Source: Alphaproteobacteria bacterium
GTDB lineage: Bacteria > Pseudomonadota > Alphaproteobacteria > Sphingomonadales > Sphingomonadaceae
Direction of reading: 5' to 3'
Assembly (NCBI GenBank): GCA_030424845.1
Contig: JAUHWC010000001.1
Location: 186,001-250,000, forward strand
DNA length: 64,000 bases
Shown: positions 19,056-28,916 of the stretch, one piece after another
Layout: the number at the start of each line of letters is the position of its first letter
Numbering within the stretch: the stretch's first letter is position 1
Made by a program: the position numbers and the translations under genes
Notes under the pieces: model-generated
What the model saw: only the letters and a program-made list of their open reading frames with translations
Database searches by the model: none
Told to the model about the DNA's origin: nothing

Positions 19056-20342
19056 TTGTCGGACAAGAAGGCGCAACTCACAATCGGTAGCGACAGCTAT
19101 GAATTCCCGGTCATGCAGGGGAGTACCGGCCCGGATGTGATCGATATCCGGAAGCTTTACGGCCAGACCGGCGCGTTCACCTTCGACCCCGGCTACAAGT
19201 CCACGGCATCCTGCGAAAGCTCGCTGACTTATATCGACGGTGACGAAGGCGTGCTGCTGCATCGCGGTTATCCGATCGGCCAGCTGGCGGAACATTCCAG
19301 CTTCATGGAAGTGTCCTACCTGCTTCTGAACGGCGAGCTGCCGTCCAAGGACGAGCTAGACACCTTCGAAGACACCATCACGCGCCACACCATGCTGCAC
19401 GAACAGCTGTCGCAGTTCTACCGCGGTTTCCGGCGTGACGCGCACCCGATGGCGGTGATGTGCGGCGTGGTCGGCGCGCTGTCTGCCTTCTACCATGACA
19501 GCACCGACATCTCCGATCCGATGCAGCGGCGCATTGCCAGCCACCGCCTGATCGCCAAGATGCCGACAATCGCCGCGATGGCCTACAAGTATTCCATCGG
19601 CCAGCCCTTCGTCTATCCGGACAACTCGCTGAGCTATACCGGCAACTTCCTGAAGATGACCTTCAGCGTCCCGGCGGAACCTTACGAAGTGCTGCCCGCC
19701 GTCGAAAAGGCGATGGACCGCATCTTCATCCTGCATGCGGACCACGAGCAGAATGCTTCGACTTCGACCGTTCGCCTTGCCGGCTCTTCGGGTGCCAACC
19801 CGTTTGCCTGTATCGCTGCGGGCATCGCCTGCCTGTGGGGCCCGGCGCATGGCGGCGCGAACGAGGCGTGCCTCAACATGCTGCGCGAGATCGGCACTCC
19901 GGAACGCATCCCGCACTACATCGAGCGCGCGAAGGACAAGAACGATCCGTTCCGCCTGATGGGCTTCGGCCATCGGGTCTACAAGAATTATGACCCGCGC
20001 GCGACGGTGATGCAGAAGACCGTGCGTGAGGTTTTCGAAGCGCTCAACGTCAACGATCCGATCTTCGAGGTCGCCCTGCGGCTCGAGGAGCTTGCGCTGG
20101 AAGACGATTACTTCAAGGAAAAGAAGCTGTTCCCCAACGTGGACTTCTATTCCGGTGCAATACTCTCCGCGATCGGTTTCCCGACCACGATGTTCACCGC
20201 CCTCTTCGCCCTTGCCCGCACCGTGGGCTGGGTTGCCCAGTGGAACGAGATGATCTCCGATCCCGGCCAGGTCATCGGTCGCCCGCGCCAGCTCTACACG
20301 GGCCCGACCCAGCGCGATTACGTACCGATCGACCAGCGCTGA
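19056..20342 (+). CDS. gltA: Citrate synthase
   Basis: A 428-residue type II citrate synthase that condenses acetyl-CoA and oxaloacetate to start the TCA cycle. Catalytic regions are visible: GPAHGGANE with one His, [14 protein letters not shown] with the second His, and PNVDFYSG with Asp. The start is a TTG at 19056, supported by AAGGAG at 19043-19048 seven bases upstream; the next in-frame ATG lies within conserved sequence. The gene ends at a strong intrinsic terminator. Confidence 0.96.
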
Positions 20343-20401: not shown

Positions 20402-21784
20402 TCAGCCGTTCGGATCCGCGGGCAGATGCAGCGTGAAGCGGGCACCCTGCCCCTTGGCGCTCTCGACAGTCAGGCTACCGTTCATGGCTTCGGCAAGCCT
20501 GCGCGAAATGTACAAGCCGAGGCCGGATCCCCCGTCTCCGCTGCGACCGAGGCACTCGAATTTCGAGAACACGCGCGCCTGCTCTTCTTCCGAGAGACCC
20601 TCACCCTGATCAGCAACCGTGACCCTGGCCCTGCCATCAGCGCTTTCGACCCTCAACCAGACTTGCGAGCCTTCGGGAGCATATCGGATGGCATTTCCGA
20701 GGAGGTTTAGCAGCACCTGGAGGACACGGCGAAACTCGCCAATCGCGGGCGCACTTTCATCCGGCTTGGGCGCGTCGATACCAATGCCCCGTTCCTGGGC
20801 GCGGACGCCCAGGATGCCCGCGGCCCTGCGTGTCACATCGGCAAGGTCAATCTGGTCAGGCGCGGGATTGAAATCCTCATCCTCGACCATCTCGAGCGTT
20901 GTCAGGTCATCGATCAAGGCCAGCAGGTGCTCGCCAGCTGAAGCAATATCCGCGGCGTAGTTGGAATATTCCTCGGCAAGCGGGCCAGCCAGCTGAGTGC
21001 GGATCGTTTCTGCATTGGCAATGATGCGCGATACCGGCTGGCGCAGCACAGGGGCGATTTCGAGCCCGATCCCGGGCAGCTTGCGCTCTGCATTCGACCG
21101 GGCCGGCCTTGCCGGCTTTCTCTCGGGCTCCGCTTGCTGTTCGGCGCTCAGGAAAAGCTCATAACCATCGCTACCCGCAATCGGCTTGCCCAATGGCACG
21201 ATCAAGGCGCGCCAATCGCGATCCGATCCGGAAACCTTCATCCGGGCACCGTCAAGCAATCGCCAGTGCACCGGCTGGTGATGCGCGTTGCCTTCCAGTT
21301 CGACATAATCGGTCCAAGGCTTGCCAATCCCGCCCCGCATACGCGTGACCAGGTCCTGCAATTCCGGGCAATCACTCTCAACAGTCAGGATGTCCTGCTG
21401 CGGACCAAGTCGCGCAAACAGCTCCGCAAACTGGCGTGCCATCGCCTCCTGGCGCTTGCGCTCATCGCCAACGGAAGGCTCTTTCAAGGGAGCGCTTTGC
21501 CAGTTCGAAACGGTGATCAGGCAACCGCCATCCTCGCCTTGAGGCTGGACTTCGACCCAGGCCGAAATGCTTTCACCATCGTCGCGTGCCTGGATCGCCT
21601 GGGCAACCTTGAAACCGTAGAGTCGCGCCTTGCGGACCAGTTGCAGCAAGGCGGGCGCAACGATCAGGCCCGGCAACTCCCCGCCGTTGCGCAACTGCAA
21701 GCCAGCGAGCGGTTCATCCGCTTCCACCAGCCAGTCGCTCTCGTTTGTGCGAGCACGGGCAGTAAGGCTTGGGGCCCGGGTCAT
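20402..21784 (-). CDS. Histidine-kinase-like ATPase lacking the phosphoacceptor histidine
   Basis: A 460-residue protein with no obvious membrane segment. Residues 20-215 look like one or two PAS-type sensory modules. Residues 237-305 align with a DHp (HisKA) helix pair, but where kinases have H-E-x-R-T-P this protein reads Pro245-Val-Leu-Arg-Gln-Pro, so the phosphorylated His is replaced by Pro. The ATP-binding domain is complete: N-box with Asn360/Asn364, DQGEG G1 box at 392-396, F-box near 406 and GGSGLGL at 418-424. It starts three bases after the upstream gene and ends four bases after the gltA terminator. Autophosphorylation at the usual site is not possible. Confidence 0.85.
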   Translation of the reverse strand: MTRAPSLTARARTNESDWLVEADEPLAGLQLRNGGELPGLIVAPALLQLVRKARLYGFKVAQAIQARDDGESISAWVEVQPQGEDGGCLITVSNWQSAPLKEPSVGDERKRQEAMARQFAELFARLGPQQDILTVESDCPELQDLVTRMRGGIGKPWTDYVELEGNAHHQPVHWRLLDGARMKVSGSDRDWRALIVPLGKPIAGSDGYELFLSAEQQAEPERKPARPARSNAERKLPGIGLEIAPVLRQPVSRIIANAETIRTQLAGPLAEEYSNYAADIASAGEHLLALIDDLTTLEMVEDEDFNPAPDQIDLADVTRRAAGILGVRAQERGIGIDAPKPDESAPAIGEFRRVLQVLLNLLGNAIRYAPEGSQVWLRVESADGRARVTVADQGEGLSEEEQARVFSKFECLGRSGDGGSGLGLYISRRLAEAMNGSLTVESAKGQGARFTLHLPADPNG

Positions 21785-21787
21785 GGA

Positions 21788-22744
21788 TCAGCCCCGGCGG
21801 CCGTCACCCATGTCACCCAGCAGCGCGGCGGCACTGGCGGATGAAAGCCTGTCGATGCCGGCAGGCATGTCCCTGTCCGGATGGATATAGAGGAACTGTT
21901 CCTCGACCACGTCCTTGCGCAAGCCCGCAACCCGCAGCGAAACGGCAAGGCGCGCGAGCTGGTTGTCTCCCAGCGAGAGAATGGTGAGGTTGCGGTCCTG
22001 GCCGGCTGCCATCGCAAGCCCGGTTGCGAATACGGCAAGACCGGCATGATCCACAGCCAAGGCACGGGTGGCGTTGCGTCCCAGCGACATCACCAGCCTG
22101 GTCAACTGGCCAAGCCTGCTTTCCGCCTCGTCATAGCCGGCACGCAGGCCCGCTTCGGCCCTGGATGCCGCTTCGTCCTCACCGGCATGGCCGCGCATGC
22201 ACAACAAGGCCTTGCGGAACAGGTCTCCCGGCAATTCGGCCAGTGGCATTTCCATCCGGCGCATCTGCTGGATGAAACGCGCCTGTGCAGAGATCGCGCG
22301 AATGGCAGCCCCGGCCGTCTTCTCGTCCTGGGATGCAGCCAATTCCTGGAGCAGCGGAGACAACACATGATCGATACCGCTGCGTTGGCGAAGCTGTTCA
22401 GCCATCTTTGCTTCCAGCGTCTTCGCGTGAACATGAGCAAGGAATGCCGCATCTTCGAACAGCAGGCGGGCCAGATCCTGGCGATGAAGGTCTGCGAAGT
22501 CTCCCGGTTCGATGGCCCCGTCTGCGGCAGCGCGCGCAAGCAGAAATTGCTGCGCCACATGCGCGGTCATCCCGCGCACCCTGGCAATCACCTCATCACT
22601 GAACAGCGCTTCATCGCGATTGGCCAGCAAGTGACGCAGGATCGGACGTGTTGCCGAAAGGACTGCGTCTTCACTGGCAAGCCGCTGACGCAGAGCAGAA
22701 TCATCCGGTACGCTCGCAGCGCTGTCTTGAATGTTGGTGTTCAT
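21788..22744 (-). CDS. Uncharacterised helical protein
   Basis: A soluble, mostly helical 318-residue protein that I do not recognise. It has no signal peptide, membrane segment or Cys/His cluster. Alternating charged and leucine/alanine positions suggest helical repeats, loosely reminiscent of alphaproteobacterial DUF2336 proteins, but I cannot assign it. The ATG at 22744 has AGGG eight bases upstream; a GTG at 22750 is possible. The ribosome binding site lies in a small hairpin (22753-22768). It is the third gene of the unit that ends with the kinase-like gene. Confidence 0.75.
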   Translation of the reverse strand: MNTNIQDSAASVPDDSALRQRLASEDAVLSATRPILRHLLANRDEALFSDEVIARVRGMTAHVAQQFLLARAAADGAIEPGDFADLHRQDLARLLFEDAAFLAHVHAKTLEAKMAEQLRQRSGIDHVLSPLLQELAASQDEKTAGAAIRAISAQARFIQQMRRMEMPLAELPGDLFRKALLCMRGHAGEDEAASRAEAGLRAGYDEAESRLGQLTRLVMSLGRNATRALAVDHAGLAVFATGLAMAAGQDRNLTILSLGDNQLARLAVSLRVAGLRKDVVEEQFLYIHPDRDMPAGIDRLSSASAAALLGDMGDGRRG

Positions 22745-22752
22745 GGTCACTG

Positions 22753-22783
22753 CCCTATCCGAATAGGGTTAAATCACGGTTAG
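22753..22783 (-). promoter_or_regulatory. Hairpin and CtrA-like half-perfect box before the helical-protein gene
   Basis: CCCTAT (22753-22758) and ATAGGG (22763-22768) form a 6-bp palindrome over the ribosome binding site. Next to it, TTAA-N7-TTAG at 22769-22783 differs by one base from the CtrA consensus TTAA-N7-TTAA and overlaps the upstream stop codon. It could give a secondary internal promoter. Confidence 0.35.
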
Positions 22784-23985
22784 CTGCGCGGTCTTGCCGC
22801 AGGGAGAAGGCCCACTGCCGCAACCAGCAACGTGCCCAGCATGATCGCCGCCTCGACATTGGCGAGATACCCGAAGAATCCGATCAGCACGGCAAGCAAG
22901 GCACGATCGCGCAGCCTTGCCAGCCACGTCAGCTGCTTGCCTCGCGTCAGGTGCAGGGCTGCCAGGAGCATCAACGGCGGGAACAGGCGCTGGTACCAAT
23001 GCCCGTCGATCGCGAGAATTCCGGCACCCAGCATGGCAATATCCACCAGCCAGGGCAGTTTGTGCCAATATCCGGCAGGCTCGATCGGAGCGCTTGCGAG
23101 CCGCTTGGCACCGAAGCTGGCTTCCAGCGCAAACACCGCCAGGACGAGCGAAAGGAACGCAGCCGCACCATAGCCAACTCCCGCCAGCCCGACGGCACCG
23201 GTGGCGATGGCACAACCCGCCAGCAAGGAGCCCGTCACCAGCCTGGATCTGCCAGCGAGGCGCGAACCGAATTTCTGCAGCAGCTTGCCGACAATCTGTC
23301 GCGAAAGCGGCGCATCAGCGGGCGGCAGGACAATGCGGGACAGCCAGCGCTCCTCCAACAGGGCGAGGTTGGCACCATCATGCATGAGCGTCCAACTGCC
23401 ATCAGCGAGCGCTTCCTGCGATAGCGCGGTTTCCGGCAGCCTGCCCTGCAAGGCTATGCGCAGCAGGGCCGGTGCCGCCTCGCTGTCTTCCGGCAGCTGC
23501 AATAATGCCGAAAGGTGGCGCCCCCCGATCACCAAGGCTCCAGACCAGGCGCGGGTCAAATCTATCCGCTCGAAACCTGCCTCCACCACGGCACCGGCAG
23601 GTAGCGTCAGCACACCGCCCCGACGCAATTCATCAATCGGAAAAGCCGCGCGCGTCGGAAGCAGGTTATCCTGCAGGACCAGAAGGTTGTCATCATCGCC
23701 GACAACCGCCGGAAGCGCATGTGGTCCGGATATCTCCCTGAGCTTCAAGCCCAGCTCCTCCGCCCTGTGGCGGGTAGCGGTGGCCTCCTGCGTCCCACCA
23801 CCGAGCAACAACAACTCGCGGCAGCCGACAGCGGCGGCAAACTCGGCCTGGCGTTCACCAAGATAGCGACCCAGCACACGCCGGGAAGGCAAATTGCCCG
23901 CTGCCACCTGGACAAGGGCATGGGATATGGAAGCGCCGATGGTGTTCACATGAGCAAAACTAGGGTCAGCGATGCAGCCTGCCAA
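22780..23985 (-). CDS. Membrane protein with a nucleotidyltransferase-like N-terminus
   Basis: A 401-residue protein with two parts. Residues 1-220 form a soluble alpha/beta domain whose start resembles sugar- or inositol-phosphate nucleotidyltransferases, though the usual catalytic Asp-rich motif is not clear. Residues 255-400 hold about five or six membrane segments. The architecture recalls bifunctional nucleotidyltransferase/CDP-alcohol phosphotransferase proteins, but the DGxxAR signature is absent, so I do not assign that function. The start is uncertain: TTG at 23985, or GTG at 23949, which overlaps the stop of an 18-codon open frame. It follows the Hpt-like gene by 17 bases. Confidence 0.7.
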   Translation of the reverse strand: MAGCIADPSFAHVNTIGASISHALVQVAAGNLPSRRVLGRYLGERQAEFAAAVGCRELLLLGGGTQEATATRHRAEELGLKLREISGPHALPAVVGDDDNLLVLQDNLLPTRAAFPIDELRRGGVLTLPAGAVVEAGFERIDLTRAWSGALVIGGRHLSALLQLPEDSEAAPALLRIALQGRLPETALSQEALADGSWTLMHDGANLALLEERWLSRIVLPPADAPLSRQIVGKLLQKFGSRLAGRSRLVTGSLLAGCAIATGAVGLAGVGYGAAAFLSLVLAVFALEASFGAKRLASAPIEPAGYWHKLPWLVDIAMLGAGILAIDGHWYQRLFPPLMLLAALHLTRGKQLTWLARLRDRALLAVLIGFFGYLANVEAAIMLGTLLVAAVGLLPAARPRS

Positions 23986-24002
23986 GCGCTCAGGAAGGAC
24001 AT

Positions 24003-24311
24003 TCAGACCTTATCAGCAAGACTTTCCGAATAATGCGATAGCTGGCGCAGGATGACCGGATCCCCCGGTGCCGAACTTTGCGCCACCTTGGCAAGGCGCA
24101 CGAGCTCCGGAGCGTGGAAGCTGCTTCCCAGTCCGATCAGGCGCATGGCCGCCACTTCCCAGTTGCCATCGCAGCGAGCCCTGCGCAGCAAATCCACATT
24201 CTGCGCAACGCTTTGGCGGAAACTGGCGATCAACTCCGCACGCAGTTGTGCATCATCGCCCGCCGCAGCGGCCAGATTAGCATCGAAGTCACTGTTTTCC
24301 ATCGCGATCAT
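24003..24311 (-). CDS. Hpt-domain-like protein lacking the phosphoacceptor histidine
   Basis: A 102-residue all-helical protein matching the histidine phosphotransfer fold: an acidic entry helix, an ELIASFRQS helix, then AAMRLIG followed by LGSSFHAPEL. In true Hpt domains that position reads AHxLKG; here Met56 replaces His and Ile59 replaces Lys. It therefore cannot carry a phosphoryl group at the usual site and is more likely a docking or inhibitory partner. It is the first gene of a four-gene unit that also encodes a His-less kinase. Starts at 24311 or 24302 (MENSDF) both fit. Confidence 0.75.
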   Translation of the reverse strand: MIAMENSDFDANLAAAAGDDAQLRAELIASFRQSVAQNVDLLRRARCDGNWEVAAMRLIGLGSSFHAPELVRLAKVAQSSAPGDPVILRQLSHYSESLADKV

Positions 24312-24335
24312 GCATGCTCTCTACCATATCCGCAG

Positions 24336-24350
24336 TTAAGGCGGCTTTAA
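24336..24350. promoter_or_regulatory. Perfect CtrA-type binding site
   Basis: TTAA (24336-24339), seven bases, TTAA (24347-24350); on the minus strand it reads TTAA-N7-TTAAC, the full consensus for the cell-cycle regulator CtrA. It lies in the 69-base gap between the divergent Hpt-like operon and the coiled-coil gene, at a distance from both starts where a CtrA site overlapping the -35 regions would give very short leaders. Confidence 0.7.
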
Positions 24351-24380
24351 ACTGGCGCGAGCGGCTGATATCATCCCAAA

Positions 24381-26966
24381 ATGAGCAGACGGAAAAACCT
24401 GATCGCCCTTGAGAACGGTAGCGATGCCGGCGAGCCGACGGCTGAAGAACCGATGGCGGAAGACATGACGGCCGGACAGTCGCAGGACGACGTTTTCGAA
24501 CCGGCCGAAGATGAATTCGAAGGCTGGGAGGAAGACGCGCCCGAGCCGCGCAGGAACATCCTCCTGCCGACCTTGGCCATACTCGCGATCGCGAGCTGGA
24601 CTGCGTTTTTCGGATGGGTGCACCATCAGGAGATGCTTGCCGGCACAACGCCGGGTGCATGGGCTGAATGGATTATCGACTGGTCAGTACCGGTGCTGCT
24701 CGTGGTGGCGCTTTGGCTGCTGGCAATGCGCAACAGCGTGCGCGAGGCACGGCGCTTTGGCGAAACCGCGCAATTGCTCTCAGCCGAATCCGCAGCGCTT
24801 GAAGCGCGGCTCACGACGGTCAATCGCGAGCTGAGCCTTGCGCGGGATTTCATTGCCTCGCAATCGCGCGACCTGGAGTCTCTCGGTCGTGTCGCCACGG
24901 AGCGGCTTTCCACACATGCTGATCGCTTGCAGGCACTGATCCGCGACAATGGCGAGCAGGTAAACGCAATCGGGTCTGTCAGCGACACCGCCGTCAGCAA
25001 CATGGACAAGCTGCGCGACCAGTTGCCGGTCGTCTCGAATGCGGCGCGCGACGTGGCCAACCAGATCGGCAATGCGGGCAACACCGCGCAGGGACAACTC
25101 GAAGAGCTTGTCGCCGGCTTCGAGCGGCTGAACGAGTTCGGCGAGGCGAGCACACGCCAGGTGGACAGCCTTGGCGCCAAGGTCAGCGAAATGCTGGCCG
25201 GTTTTGCGGCGCGGCTCGAGGAACTGGAGCGCCAGTCAGGAGAACGGTTTGCCACCCTGCGCGAAAAGGACGAGGAGTTCCGGCTGGAACTGGAAGCGCG
25301 CGAAACCGACACCTTGGCCGCGATCCGTCGCCGCGCCGAGGACCTGCAACGCGAGTTGGCAGAACTTTCCGCCCAGGCCAGCCAGCAGGAAGAACTCGCG
25401 GCGAGCGAGATCCAGTCCCGCCTTGCCACCCTGCGCGATGAGGGGACGCGCCTTTCCCAGGACCTGCGCGATAGCCAGGGCGAAACGGAAGAGCTCTGGA
25501 AAGCCTCGATCGAAGCGCTGCGCGAACGCATGACGCAGGCGATTACCGACATCAGCAAGATCGATGAGGCGGCAATGGACAATGCCCGTCGGCGCATGGA
25601 AGCCTTGCAGCAAGCCGGTGAACGCGTGAACGAGACGATGAAGCGCAGCACGCAGGCCTTTGACGAGGAGTTTGCGCGACGTCGCGAGGAAGCAGAAGCT
25701 GCAGAGGAGCAGGCCCTTGCGGCGCTGGAGGAACGCATATCGCAGTTTGCCTCTCGCAATTCCGAGGCCCAGGAACAGCACCTGGCGCACATGGCGGCAC
25801 TGGCCGAACGCGGTGATGCATTGGGCCAGAGACTTGCCGAATTCGACCGCGAGCTCTACCGCCTTGCCGAAAAGGGCGGCGAGCAAAGCGACAAGCTGGC
25901 CCAGTCCAGCGAATTGCTGGCAGAACGCCTGTCGCAAAGCCGCGCCATACTCGAAGAGAATGGCACCTTCGTCGCACGCCTCACTGACGATTGCGTACGC
26001 TTGCTGGAGTTCATCCGCTCGAGCACGGATTACTCCGAAGGCGCACTATCCAGCGCCATCGGGAATGCGGAGTCCCGCCTCGCCCAATTCGAGGTCAAGG
26101 CCGCTGCAGTCGCCGAACTGGTCAGCAGCGCCGAAGGCAAAGGCCGCCTGCTGGAACAGCACGTTGCATCAACGGGAGAGCAGTCCGCTGCGCAGATCCG
26201 CGTGATCGAGGGGCTTCAGGAAGGGTTGGCAGCGATTGCCAGCCAGACCACCCAGCTGACCGAGCAGGCCCGTGAGGAGCTGCAACAGGCCATCGAGAGT
26301 CTTCAGGAGGCATCAACCAGCACGCTGGCCGAGATGCGCTCAGGCCAGGCCGAGGCCGTTCGTGCGATTGCGGAAAAGGTCGGCTCGGAAGGAGCGGAAG
26401 CGATCGAGGAGGCAATTCGAAAGGCAGCCAGCGAGACCATTGCCGAACTGGAAAGCGCATCCGCCAAGGCAAGCGAACGTGGCCGCGAGACCGCAAGCGC
26501 CTTGCGCGACCAGCTGGTGCGCGTCAACGAACTGGCAAGCAACCTCGAACAACGTGTTGCCCAGGCCCGCGCCCGTGCGGAAGAACAGGTGGACAACGAC
26601 TTCACCCGCCGCATGGCGCTGATCACCGACAGCCTGAATTCCTGTTCGATCGATATCGCGAAGGCTTTCGATGCCGAGGTGAGCGACCTTTCATGGGCAA
26701 GCTACCTGCGCGGTGATCGCGGCATTTTCACGCGGCGTGCCGTGCGACTGCTCGATAATTCGCAATCCCGCTCCATAAGCGAGGCCTATGAGGCTGATCC
26801 GGAGCTGCGCGAGGCGATCAACCGCTACATCCATGACTTTGAAGCCATGTTGCGCGGCGTGCTGTCCACCCGCGATGGCAATGCCATTGCCGTTACGCTG
26901 CTGTCATCGGACATCGGCAAGTTGTACGTCGCCCTCGCCCAGGCGATCGAACGGTTGCGGGATTAG
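24381..26966 (+). CDS. Large membrane-anchored coiled-coil protein
   Basis: An 861-residue protein. An acidic N-terminal tail (1-55) is followed by two membrane segments (about 60-80 and 98-116), so both ends are predicted cytoplasmic. A very long coiled-coil region (about 120-760), rich in Glu, Arg, Ala and Leu, leads to a compact C-terminal domain (about 765-861) with FTRRAVRLLD, YIHDFEAMLR and LLSSDIGKLYVALAQ segments. I recall similar C-termini in other alphaproteobacterial coiled-coil proteins of unknown role. It diverges from the Hpt-like operon across a CtrA box, suggesting a cell-cycle, polarity or envelope scaffold. The 3' end overlaps the convergent DUF1467 gene by four bases. Confidence 0.85.
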   Translation: MSRRKNLIALENGSDAGEPTAEEPMAEDMTAGQSQDDVFEPAEDEFEGWEEDAPEPRRNILLPTLAILAIASWTAFFGWVHHQEMLAGTTPGAWAEWIIDWSVPVLLVVALWLLAMRNSVREARRFGETAQLLSAESAALEARLTTVNRELSLARDFIASQSRDLESLGRVATERLSTHADRLQALIRDNGEQVNAIGSVSDTAVSNMDKLRDQLPVVSNAARDVANQIGNAGNTAQGQLEELVAGFERLNEFGEASTRQVDSLGAKVSEMLAGFAARLEELERQSGERFATLREKDEEFRLELEARETDTLAAIRRRAEDLQRELAELSAQASQQEELAASEIQSRLATLRDEGTRLSQDLRDSQGETEELWKASIEALRERMTQAITDISKIDEAAMDNARRRMEALQQAGERVNETMKRSTQAFDEEFARRREEAEAAEEQALAALEERISQFASRNSEAQEQHLAHMAALAERGDALGQRLAEFDRELYRLAEKGGEQSDKLAQSSELLAERLSQSRAILEENGTFVARLTDDCVRLLEFIRSSTDYSEGALSSAIGNAESRLAQFEVKAAAVAELVSSAEGKGRLLEQHVASTGEQSAAQIRVIEGLQEGLAAIASQTTQLTEQAREELQQAIESLQEASTSTLAEMRSGQAEAVRAIAEKVGSEGAEAIEEAIRKAASETIAELESASAKASERGRETASALRDQLVRVNELASNLEQRVAQARARAEEQVDNDFTRRMALITDSLNSCSIDIAKAFDAEVSDLSWASYLRGDRGIFTRRAVRLLDNSQSRSISEAYEADPELREAINRYIHDFEAMLRGVLSTRDGNAIAVTLLSSDIGKLYVALAQAIERLRD

Positions 26967-27256
26967 CTCTCGCCCGCAGTTTCGGCCCCCGGCGGTGACC
27001 CGAAGAGGTTCAGGTCATCAACGGTGATCCATCCGTTGATGTAATTTGCAACATACAGTGCCGTGAACACGGCGGCGAGCAGCGTGGCACGCAAGGCGAG
27101 CCTTCCCGGCCGGAAATCGGCTGGAGCGCTGTCTGCCTGACCGGGCACTTTTTCCAACCCCGCCTCTTCATGGGTCCGCACACCGAAAGGGAGCATCAGG
27201 AATGCCGTCATCACCCAGAACAGGGCATAGATGGCGAGGATTGAAGTCAACTGCAT
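26963..27256 (-). CDS. DUF1467 family membrane protein
   Basis: A 97-residue inner-membrane protein with two membrane segments (about residues 5-24 and 57-75) around a soluble loop, and the MLPFGVRTHEE motif typical of DUF1467. Function is unknown; the family is usual in alphaproteobacteria and often lies near rnj and the nuo genes. It is the last gene of the long nuo transcription unit, ten bases after rnj, and overlaps the end of the convergent coiled-coil gene. Confidence 0.88.
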   Translation of the reverse strand: MQLTSILAIYALFWVMTAFLMLPFGVRTHEEAGLEKVPGQADSAPADFRPGRLALRATLLAAVFTALYVANYINGWITVDDLNLFGSPPGAETAGES

Positions 27257-27266
27257 GGGCTGGGCT

Positions 27267-28916
27267 CTACTCTTCCGGCAGGATCACGCGGGTCTGTGGG
27301 CGCTTGCCGGACCAGCGCTGTGCAGCACGCCGAGCGGCAAGGCGGGCGGCTTCATGGATACTCTCGCGATCCCGCGCCGCTGCTCCGCGCAGTTTAGACA
27401 AGGATCGCTTCACATCCTCGATCGCTTCGTCGATGAAAGCGTCGTAATCCTCGTCCAGCGGCAATCCGATCCCTTCGATCTGGATCGATCCGCCCTTGCC
27501 AAGGACCACCACCAAGTATCCGTCGCGAGACAGGCGGCGGCGCATCGTGATCGCCTCGCCGTCAGCCGGCACGATGATGTCGCCATCAAGGACAAGTCGG
27601 CCGGTTTCCACCTCGGCAATCTTGCCCGGCGTACCGGGTGCCAGGCGCACGATATCGCCGTTCTTCTGGAAAATATTGCGGGCAATGCCGTTGGCCTGCC
27701 CCAACCGTGCCTGTTCCATCATGTGGCGGATCTCGCCATGAACCGGCACCAGGATTTCCGGGCGAATCCAGCTGTAGAGAGCCTCCAGCTCCGGCCTGCC
27801 TGGGTGCCCCGACACGTGGATATGGCTCTGCCTGTCAGTCACCATTACCACGCCGCGCTGCGCCAGTTCGTTCTGGATACGCCCGATGGCAAGCTCGTTG
27901 CCGGGAATGACGCGACTCGAAAACAGCACCACATCTCCTTCGTCCAGGGAAATGGGGTGGTTGTCTTCCGCTATGCGCGCCAGGGCCGCCCGCGGCTCGC
28001 CCTGCCCGCCCGTGGCAATGAACATGACCTCACCACGGCGCATGCCCATCGCCGTGTCGAAATCGACGACGCGCGGAAAGTTCTGGAGGTACCCGTTCGC
28101 CCGCGCGACATCGATGATCCGGTCCAAAGAGCGACCGGCAACGCACAACGCCCGACCGGTTTCCTCCCCGATCTCGCCAAGGGTCTGCAGGCGCGCGACA
28201 TTCGAGGCAAAAGTAGTGATCAACACACGTTTGCCGGAGTGCTTGCGCACCTCTTCCAGCAGCCCGCGATACACAGCACCTTCGGAGCCCGAGGCGTTGG
28301 GATTGAACACATTGGTGGAGTCACAAACCAGCGCCAGCACGCCCTCGTCACCGATCGCGGTGAGCTCCTCTTCCGTAGTCGGCTCGCCGATGATCGGTTC
28401 CTCATCCAGTTTCCAGTCGCCCGTGTGGAAGACCCGGCCGTAAGGCGTATCGATCAGCAGCGCGTTGCCCTCCGCAATCGAGTGGGCAAGCGGGATATAG
28501 GTAACCTCGAATGGTCCGATGTCGAAACTGCCATGATCATCATCGATCACGATCAGTTCGACACTGTCGGCAATCCCCGCCTCATCCAGCTTGCGCAGGA
28601 TAAGGTCGGCGGTGAACGGCGTGGCATAGAGCGGCACGCCGAGGTCAGCCGCGAAATAGGGGATCGCACCGATGTGGTCTTCATGCGCGTGGGTAAGCAC
28701 GATGGCCAGGAGGTCTTCCGCCCGTTCCTCGATGAAGGCGGGGTCAGCGAACATCAGTTCGGTTCCGGGATATTCGGCCTGGCCAAAGCTCATGCCCAGG
28801 TCGACCATCAGCCACTTGCCCTGGCATCCGTACAGGTTGACGTTCATGCCGATCTCGCCGGACCCGCCGAGCGCAAGGAACAGCAATTCGTCTTCCGGTG
28901 TGTAGTCTTTCTTCAT
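27267..28916 (-). CDS. rnj: Ribonuclease J
   Basis: A 549-residue metallo-beta-lactamase/beta-CASP ribonuclease with 5'-to-3' exonuclease and endonuclease activity in RNA decay and maturation. The zinc site HAHEDH lies near residue 77, the beta-CASP region spans about 200-370, and the [11 protein letters not shown] and PVHGE segments close the active site. The length matches alphaproteobacterial RNase J. The start overlaps the coaX stop (ATGA). RNase E is also encoded in this window, so the organism has both degradation systems. Confidence 0.95.

Follow-up and report, generated by a model that had tools for sequence, protein, structure and literature searches.

A conserved locus in Sphingomonadaceae that joins an RgsE/GPR-type scaffold gene to phosphorelay-like genes lacking the phosphoacceptor histidine

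What kind of system is encoded where two phosphorelay-like proteins without a phosphoacceptor histidine, an enzyme-like membrane protein and a long coiled-coil protein share one locus? The locus lies at 20402 to 26966 of a 64,000-nucleotide stretch of a Sphingomonadaceae genome (contig JAUHWC010000001.1, positions 186,001 to 250,000; hereafter the window). It contains five genes, flanked by gltX-gltA and by a DUF1467-type gene and RNase J. Four of them are packed on the minus strand with gaps of 3, 35 and 17 bases. These are HK, a histidine-kinase-like protein of 460 aa (20402 to 21784); X, a probably all-helical protein of 318 aa from the ATG at 22744 (21788 to 22744), or of 320 aa from an in-frame GTG upstream; NTM, with an N-terminal nucleotidyltransferase-like and a C-terminal membrane domain (22780 to 23985); and an Hpt-like protein of 99 aa (24003 to 24302). 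They diverge, across 78 bases, from the plus-strand gene of COIL, an 861-aa membrane-anchored coiled-coil protein (24381 to 26966). An earlier sequence-only reading had described four packed genes diverging from a coiled-coil gene, and all five are found in that place. We suggest that the locus probably encodes a CtrA-linked polar scaffold complex, in which the phosphorelay partners have turned into non-catalytic adaptors.

The sequence-only reading did not recognize the combination as a familiar system. COIL itself is not of unknown kind, because homology places it in the RgsE/GPR family. We built a profile from the C-terminal 165 residues of COIL and related proteins, and it matched 92 of 240 genomes sampled across the class. 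One of the named matches, annotated "kinesin", comes from Sinorhizobium meliloti and encodes 2,089 aa. RgsE, which is homologous to the growth pole ring protein GPR of Agrobacterium, has the same published length (PMC7327166), so we identify this gene as rgsE. COIL and RgsE are 36% identical over 193 C-terminal residues (E=3e-22). Two N-terminal membrane helices are predicted in COIL from hydropathy, at residues 59 to 80 and 93 to 111, and RgsE and GPR are described as membrane-anchored by two helices (PMC7327166, PMC8262873). COIL matched PF01442 at 1.3e-6 with 28.7 bits, below the cut-off of 90; RgsE itself matched at 7.6e-77, and the COIL of Sphingomonas parapaucimobilis matched no Pfam family at 0.1. 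COIL is present in 58 of 61 genomes of a sample of relatives, including its own, and distant RgsE homologues have been reported in Emcibacterales and Rhodospirillales (PMC7327166). A 3.7-Mb S. meliloti record that carries a 2,089-aa rgsE-like gene (L235, CP090106.1) is labeled plasmid pSymB. This label looks wrong, since housekeeping genes such as folP and petA are on the same record.

COIL probably belongs to the TipN family too. GPR has been called similar to TipN (PMC8546619), and TipN of Caulobacter crescentus has a length of 882 aa (PMC13170164). In a family that we infer to be Caulobacteraceae, COIL relatives occur in 25 of 26 genomes, most as open frames of 797 to 1040 aa; the family was assigned from matches to the DivJ model, found in 12 of the 26 genomes at E<=1e-150 and in none above the model's cut-off. 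The window-order profile A6 matched several of these relatives, the best at 7e-13. A scan of genome contigs with profile A9 reached Parvibaculum, Rhodobiaceae and other alphaproteobacterial records and no Caulobacter. A plasmid search with the Caulobacteraceae-type C terminus found nothing.

In S. meliloti, the immediate, divergent neighbor of rgsE is annotated as an Hpt-domain gene and has a canonical site (Pfam Hpt, 3.9e-9). In a named-genome scan, the same divergent arrangement occurs in 42 of 47 loci, for example those of Parvibaculum indicum and Tepidicaulis marinus. It is also present in 10 of 20 loci from the order's other families and in 4 of 20 class-level loci. By gene position and homology, the divergent Hpt is an old partner of the scaffold, and not a universal one. 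We found no report of the pairing in the literature searched, which left out most subscription papers and included text searches for Hpt in PMC7327166, PMC8262873 and PMC9022086. With a canonical Hpt beside it outside the window's family, the scaffold would there probably bring a phosphorelay to the pole.

Outside that family, the phospho-His is kept in all 56 Hpt rows, which come from at most 55 distinct loci because one genome appears twice (L140, L159). The Lys is kept in 55 of them and both Gly in all. Inside the family, the site holds Met, Gln, Glu, Leu, Trp or Gly in 22 of 23 rows. The window protein has Met53 there, and His63 where Gly is usual; a His lies ten residues past the site in 20 of the 23 rows. 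With Leu in S. parapaucimobilis and Trp in genome G061, 24 of 25 family rows are without the His, and the Hpt described earlier as His-less is indeed so. Pfam Hpt did not match the window protein, and 2 of 12 genus members gave weak matches, the best at 0.0031. However, the order-level Hpt1 profile matched the His-less proteins of S. parapaucimobilis (1.5e-10) and G061 (3.2e-11). These matches, together with the same gene position and an alignable motif, mark the window gene as a descendant of a canonical Hpt. Because a canonical-Hpt profile also finds His-less members, the contrast between families is not simply an effect of the search.

HK matched HATPase_c at 1.7e-28 and HisKA at 8.8e-7, and Pro245 occupies the phospho-His site. 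Among 42 aligned homologues, this position is Pro in 34, Gly in 3, Arg in 2, and Ser, Ala and Glu in one each, and no row has a His within six columns of it. The absence of the His, noticed earlier in the window protein, therefore extends to every homologue aligned. All 41 sequences checked keep the ATP-site residues N360, N364, D392, G394, G396, G419, G421 and G423. Few parts of the protein are as conserved as the helix around the phospho-His site (the DHp helix), and this conservation argues for a binding surface that has been kept. By these residues, HK is a pseudo-kinase. A search of plasmids with HK at E 1e-60 found nothing, at a limit that would miss distant HKs.

X is probably a diverged DUF2336 protein. 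The window proteins X, NTM and Hpt-like gave no significant Pfam match individually, and Pfam DUF2336 (PF10098) matched nothing in the window genome. Positional homologues of X did match it: L108 at 2.8e-9, L107 at 2.9e-7 and L099 at 1.3e-6, with L108 alone above the curated cut-off and the other four of seven scanned giving no match. When X was combined with deep family members (profile A11) and compared with a DUF2336 profile (A7), the match had an E-value of 3.8e-5 and a probability of 71. X of S. parapaucimobilis matched that family profile at 7.6e-21 and did not match Pfam DUF2336. A single-sequence structure model of X was all helix, with a pLDDT of 45.7 that is too low for a fold search.

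DUF2336 genes also accompany the scaffold elsewhere. In the order's other families, 13 of 20 scaffold loci have them, at distances of up to about 9 kb; some of the contigs are short. A receiver protein is present in 15 of these 20 loci, and a second Hpt-type protein likewise in 15. The receiver, which has an Arg-rich tail, and the second Hpt form a conserved pair near the scaffold (L034 to L052). The second Hpt is present in 74 of 83 other-family genomes versus 1 of 35 in the window's family.

NTM appears to be an inactive nucleotidyltransferase fused to a membrane domain. It resembles PDB 4mnd, a bifunctional inositol-phosphate cytidylyltransferase/phosphotransferase, at 1.5e-4 with a family profile and 0.0078 with a genus profile, and 2 of 10 members scanned gave a weak match to NTP_transf_3, below the cut-off. 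We scanned 41 members with patterns that we take to represent the CDP-alcohol and nucleotidyltransferase motifs. Neither the CDP-alcohol motif nor the nucleotidyltransferase loop was found in any of them, and a loose DGxxAR was found in 2. NTM starts at the TTG at 23985 or at a downstream GTG, for example at 23949; no in-frame ATG is among the listed start candidates above 23800.

Are these genes a unit? In 20 of 20 same-genus loci fetched, the order gltX, gltA, HK, X, NTM, (Hpt), COIL, DUF1467-type gene and RNase J is identical, with Hpt found in 11 and missing from 9. Among 118 genomes sampled from the order, NTM was found in 25 and X in 15, all within the window's family (25 and 15 of 35 genomes, respectively) and none among the 83 genomes elsewhere. 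We also fetched 20 family loci of other genera from NTM-positive genomes, a selected set. HK was detected in all 20 of them, COIL in 16, X in 12 with the genus profile and Hpt in 11; some of these loci are without gltX, gltA, the DUF1467-type gene or RNase J. The named S. parapaucimobilis record has the full cluster, including an annotated Hpt-domain gene. Linkage thus extends through the genus and to much of the family, so the lack of linkage that would have refuted the sequence-only reading is not what is seen. Within it, Hpt-COIL and HK-X-NTM appear to be two stable groups: RNase J accompanies Hpt and COIL in G061, where HK-X-NTM is not with them, and two loci (L238, L239) have HK-X-NTM and no COIL within the 19 kb fetched.

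The divergent gap contains the perfect TTAA-N7-TTAAC box, a CtrA-type full site, that the sequence-only reading had seen (24335 to 24350, minus strand; TTAAGGCGGCTTTAA at 24336 to 24350). It is the sole TTAA-N7-TTAA in the window, where 0.05 are expected, and 5 of 100 shuffles contain one. TTAA-N7-TTAAC occurs twice in the 2.83-Mb genome versus 7 times for the reversed control pattern, so the box is rare and the motif is not over-represented genome-wide. The other copy (L002) lies between an uncharacterized gene and an operon that we take to be of the TonB/ExbB type, and we know of no CtrA target at that site.

The box is real and rare in the window, but only 4 of 30 same-genus loci (L003 to L032, own genome included) have its perfect form, and what is conserved is mainly one TTAA half. 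We rejected the perfect box as a strictly conserved element. At scaffold promoters, TTAA-N7-TTAA was found in 1 of 20 same-genus, 2 of 16 family, 0 of 20 other-family, 1 of 47 named-scan and 1 of 12 Caulobacteraceae-type loci, and the AATT-N7-AATT control in 0, 0, 0, 1 and 0. At linked Hpt promoters, the counts from same genus through named scan were 1 of 11, 2 of 11, 1 of 10 and 3 of 42 (controls 0, 0, 0 and 1). Relatives keep the TTAA half-site, about 45 bases upstream of the scaffold ATG. Among 21 same-genus sequences, TTAA is at -47 to -44 in 13 and at -52 to -50 in 6, and AATT is at -47 to -44 in none; with the first possible codon taken as the start, 9 of 16 family loci have TTAA at -47 to -44. 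The second half-site is TTAA in the window and a few relatives, and elsewhere it is often TTTA or TTTC. In 283 kb of 20 same-genus loci, all eight occurrences of TTAACCAT are at most 150 bp upstream of COIL, in 7 loci. Listed CtrA motifs include TTAA-N7-TTAA, TTAACCAT and TTAA, with activating sites near -35 (PMC6180460). Because related genomes are not independent, none of these promoter counts is a probability.

Clear enrichment of TTAA-N7-TTAA was found at the DUF2336 promoters of the other families, with 10 of 13 versus 2 of 13 for the control (L034 to L052). Given these 10 promoter windows, DUF2336 may be a CtrA-linked family. Two further features were seen upstream of COIL. In 6 of the 9 Hpt-less same-genus loci (L056, L057, L058, L060, L062 and L066), GTGGGTTTTAACCATTT replaces the GTTAAG-type element, as if the promoter had changed upon loss of Hpt. 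In L091 and L095, TTATCCACA, which we take to be a DnaA-box-like sequence, lies near the TTAA half-site.

We propose the following mechanism. The ancestor would have been a polar scaffold with working Hpt, receiver and DUF2336 partners. In the window's family, unlike in other families of the order, the receiver and second Hpt are not beside the scaffold; a His-less kinase-like ATPase, a probable diverged DUF2336 protein and the motif-less NTM stand in place of that pair. COIL would be anchored in the inner membrane by its two N-terminal helices, with a long helical body that ends in the conserved domain (about residues 740 to 861). Its homology and layout suggest a location at the growing pole, like that of RgsE and GPR. 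Control would be allosteric: the nucleotide state of the pseudo-kinase dimer would be relayed by binding through the pseudo-Hpt and X, and the relayed state may control assembly or client recruitment at the scaffold. NTM may tie the set to the membrane. Expression would probably follow the cell cycle, with CtrA acting at the promoter region between the diverging genes, as the motif suggests. In Sphingomonadales, CckA-ChpT-CtrA is reported as kept and DivJ-PleC-DivK as degenerate or lost (PMC2877005). The synteny with S. parapaucimobilis agrees with placing the window in that order.

A more specific version of this proposal is tentative, and we hold it to be somewhat less probable than its opposite. 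In this version, a phosphotransfer set was converted to a phosphate-free complex on the polar scaffold, with the Hpt as an adaptor carrying a new conserved His, the pseudo-kinase as an ATP-driven switch and the pseudo-enzyme as a membrane anchor.

Several observations weigh against the polar scaffold complex. Hpt appears dispensable in the 9 same-genus loci that are missing it, and the family Hpt of L071 has a His at the phospho-site. COIL is not near HK-X-NTM in 4 of the 20 family loci (L101 to L103 and L107) with either scaffold profile. Hpt was not detected in 16 of 20 class-level loci or in 11 Caulobacteraceae-type loci, so the pairing is not universal. Canonical members were the basis of the Hpt profile applied outside the family, which could leave His-less Hpts under-sampled there. 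Scaffold promoters lack the perfect box in 20 of 20 other-family, 19 of 20 same-genus and 14 of 16 family loci. A direct assignment of X to DUF2336 had to be rejected, because X itself gave no match and its genus profile (A2) matched the DUF2336 profile A7 without significance. Finally, the TipN identity is probable and not confirmed by name.

How do other explanations compare? The locus might serve the placement of an envelope structure or surface organelle, such as pili, the flagellum or exopolysaccharide, rather than growth or division polarity. The resemblance of NTM to an enzyme of the lipid-head-group type (4mnd, E=1.5e-4) fits this, as does the report that Sphingomonas melonis grows no worse after loss of ctrA (PMC8116508). 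However, the nearest studied scaffold relatives, GPR and RgsE, act in polar growth, and the conserved block has no organelle genes, which makes this explanation unlikely. A reading as a gene transfer agent or motility locus was rejected because the block has no such genes either. It is improbable, too, that the neighbors are decaying, functionless remnants of a phosphorelay and that the scaffold alone matters. The missing Hpt genes and a family locus in which HK is split over two frames (L105) would fit decay, and mean column identity is lower for X (61%) and NTM (58%) than for HK (74%). Yet reading frames are otherwise intact throughout the genus and family, the gene order is kept, and HK of 19 genus members is 61 to 72% identical to the window HK, with many invariant residues, including in the DHp helix.

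We give the smallest chance to a relay that still works, with a moved phosphoacceptor (His63 of the Hpt or another residue) and an HK with an unusual mode of phosphorylation. All 12 genus members compared have His63, which is also common in the family, and the eight ATP-site residues checked are all kept. But no HK homologue has a His near the site, whose residue varies, the Lys of the Hpt is variable, and position +10 is Asn in S. parapaucimobilis and Gly in G061. A polarity module with pseudo-phosphorelay parts, as the sequence-only reading had it, is thus the best-supported reading, with the corrections that Hpt is not a constant member within the genus and that the coil belongs to a known family.

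The flanking genes are conserved neighbors. The DUF1467-type small protein (26963 to 27256, minus strand) and RNase J (27267 to 28916, minus strand) take their names from the annotated S. parapaucimobilis record. Citrate synthase gltA (19056 to 20342, plus strand) is a constant neighbor (L053 to L072), and we do not claim it as a member of the complex. In Caulobacter, citA and tipN are reported to interact genetically in G1-S control (PMC7083601); the adjacency seen here may be a coincidence. An 880-kb S. parapaucimobilis "plasmid" (L236, NZ_CP155749.1) carries gltX, citrate synthase, the cluster, RNase J and nuo genes, and it may be chromosomal.

The polar scaffold kind is already known, and the set of pseudo-enzyme partners is new. 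The locus places an RgsE/GPR-type scaffold with fixed partners in a family whose usual polarity circuit is reported to be degraded. If the phosphate-free version is true, the conversion took place in a lineage with DivJ-PleC-DivK reported as degenerate or lost. The same joint reading would make the canonical Hpt beside RgsE and other alphaproteobacterial scaffolds an unrecognized direct link between phosphorelay and growth pole. The Hpt gene adjoining rgsE in S. meliloti is a candidate scaffold partner, and the loss of the phospho-His in one lineage with the linkage kept is a natural experiment on binding versus phosphotransfer.

Four known systems resemble parts of this locus. RgsE of S. meliloti, with which the alignment was made, and GPR of Agrobacterium tumefaciens, compared by description only, share with COIL a homologous C-terminal domain, an N-terminal anchor and a long helical body. 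RgsE also has the divergent Hpt gene next door, and COIL gave a weak match, below the cut-off, to the apolipoprotein-like family PF01442. However, COIL has 861 aa versus 2,089 and 2,115 aa for RgsE and GPR, and its Hpt and kinase partners are without the phospho-His. TipN of C. crescentus is similar in size to COIL, but an Hpt neighbor was detected at none of the 11 Caulobacteraceae-type loci. IPCT-DIPPS (4mnd), like NTM, has a nucleotidyltransferase-like domain followed by a membrane domain, whereas NTM lacks the catalytic motifs of both. A DivL-type protein has been called a pseudo-kinase that acts at the pole on the CtrA pathway (PMC8116508). HK is likewise kinase-like, with HisKA and HATPase domains and no phospho-His. 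Unlike the DivL type, which we compared by description only, HK has no predicted membrane helix, and most HK members have Pro at the site.

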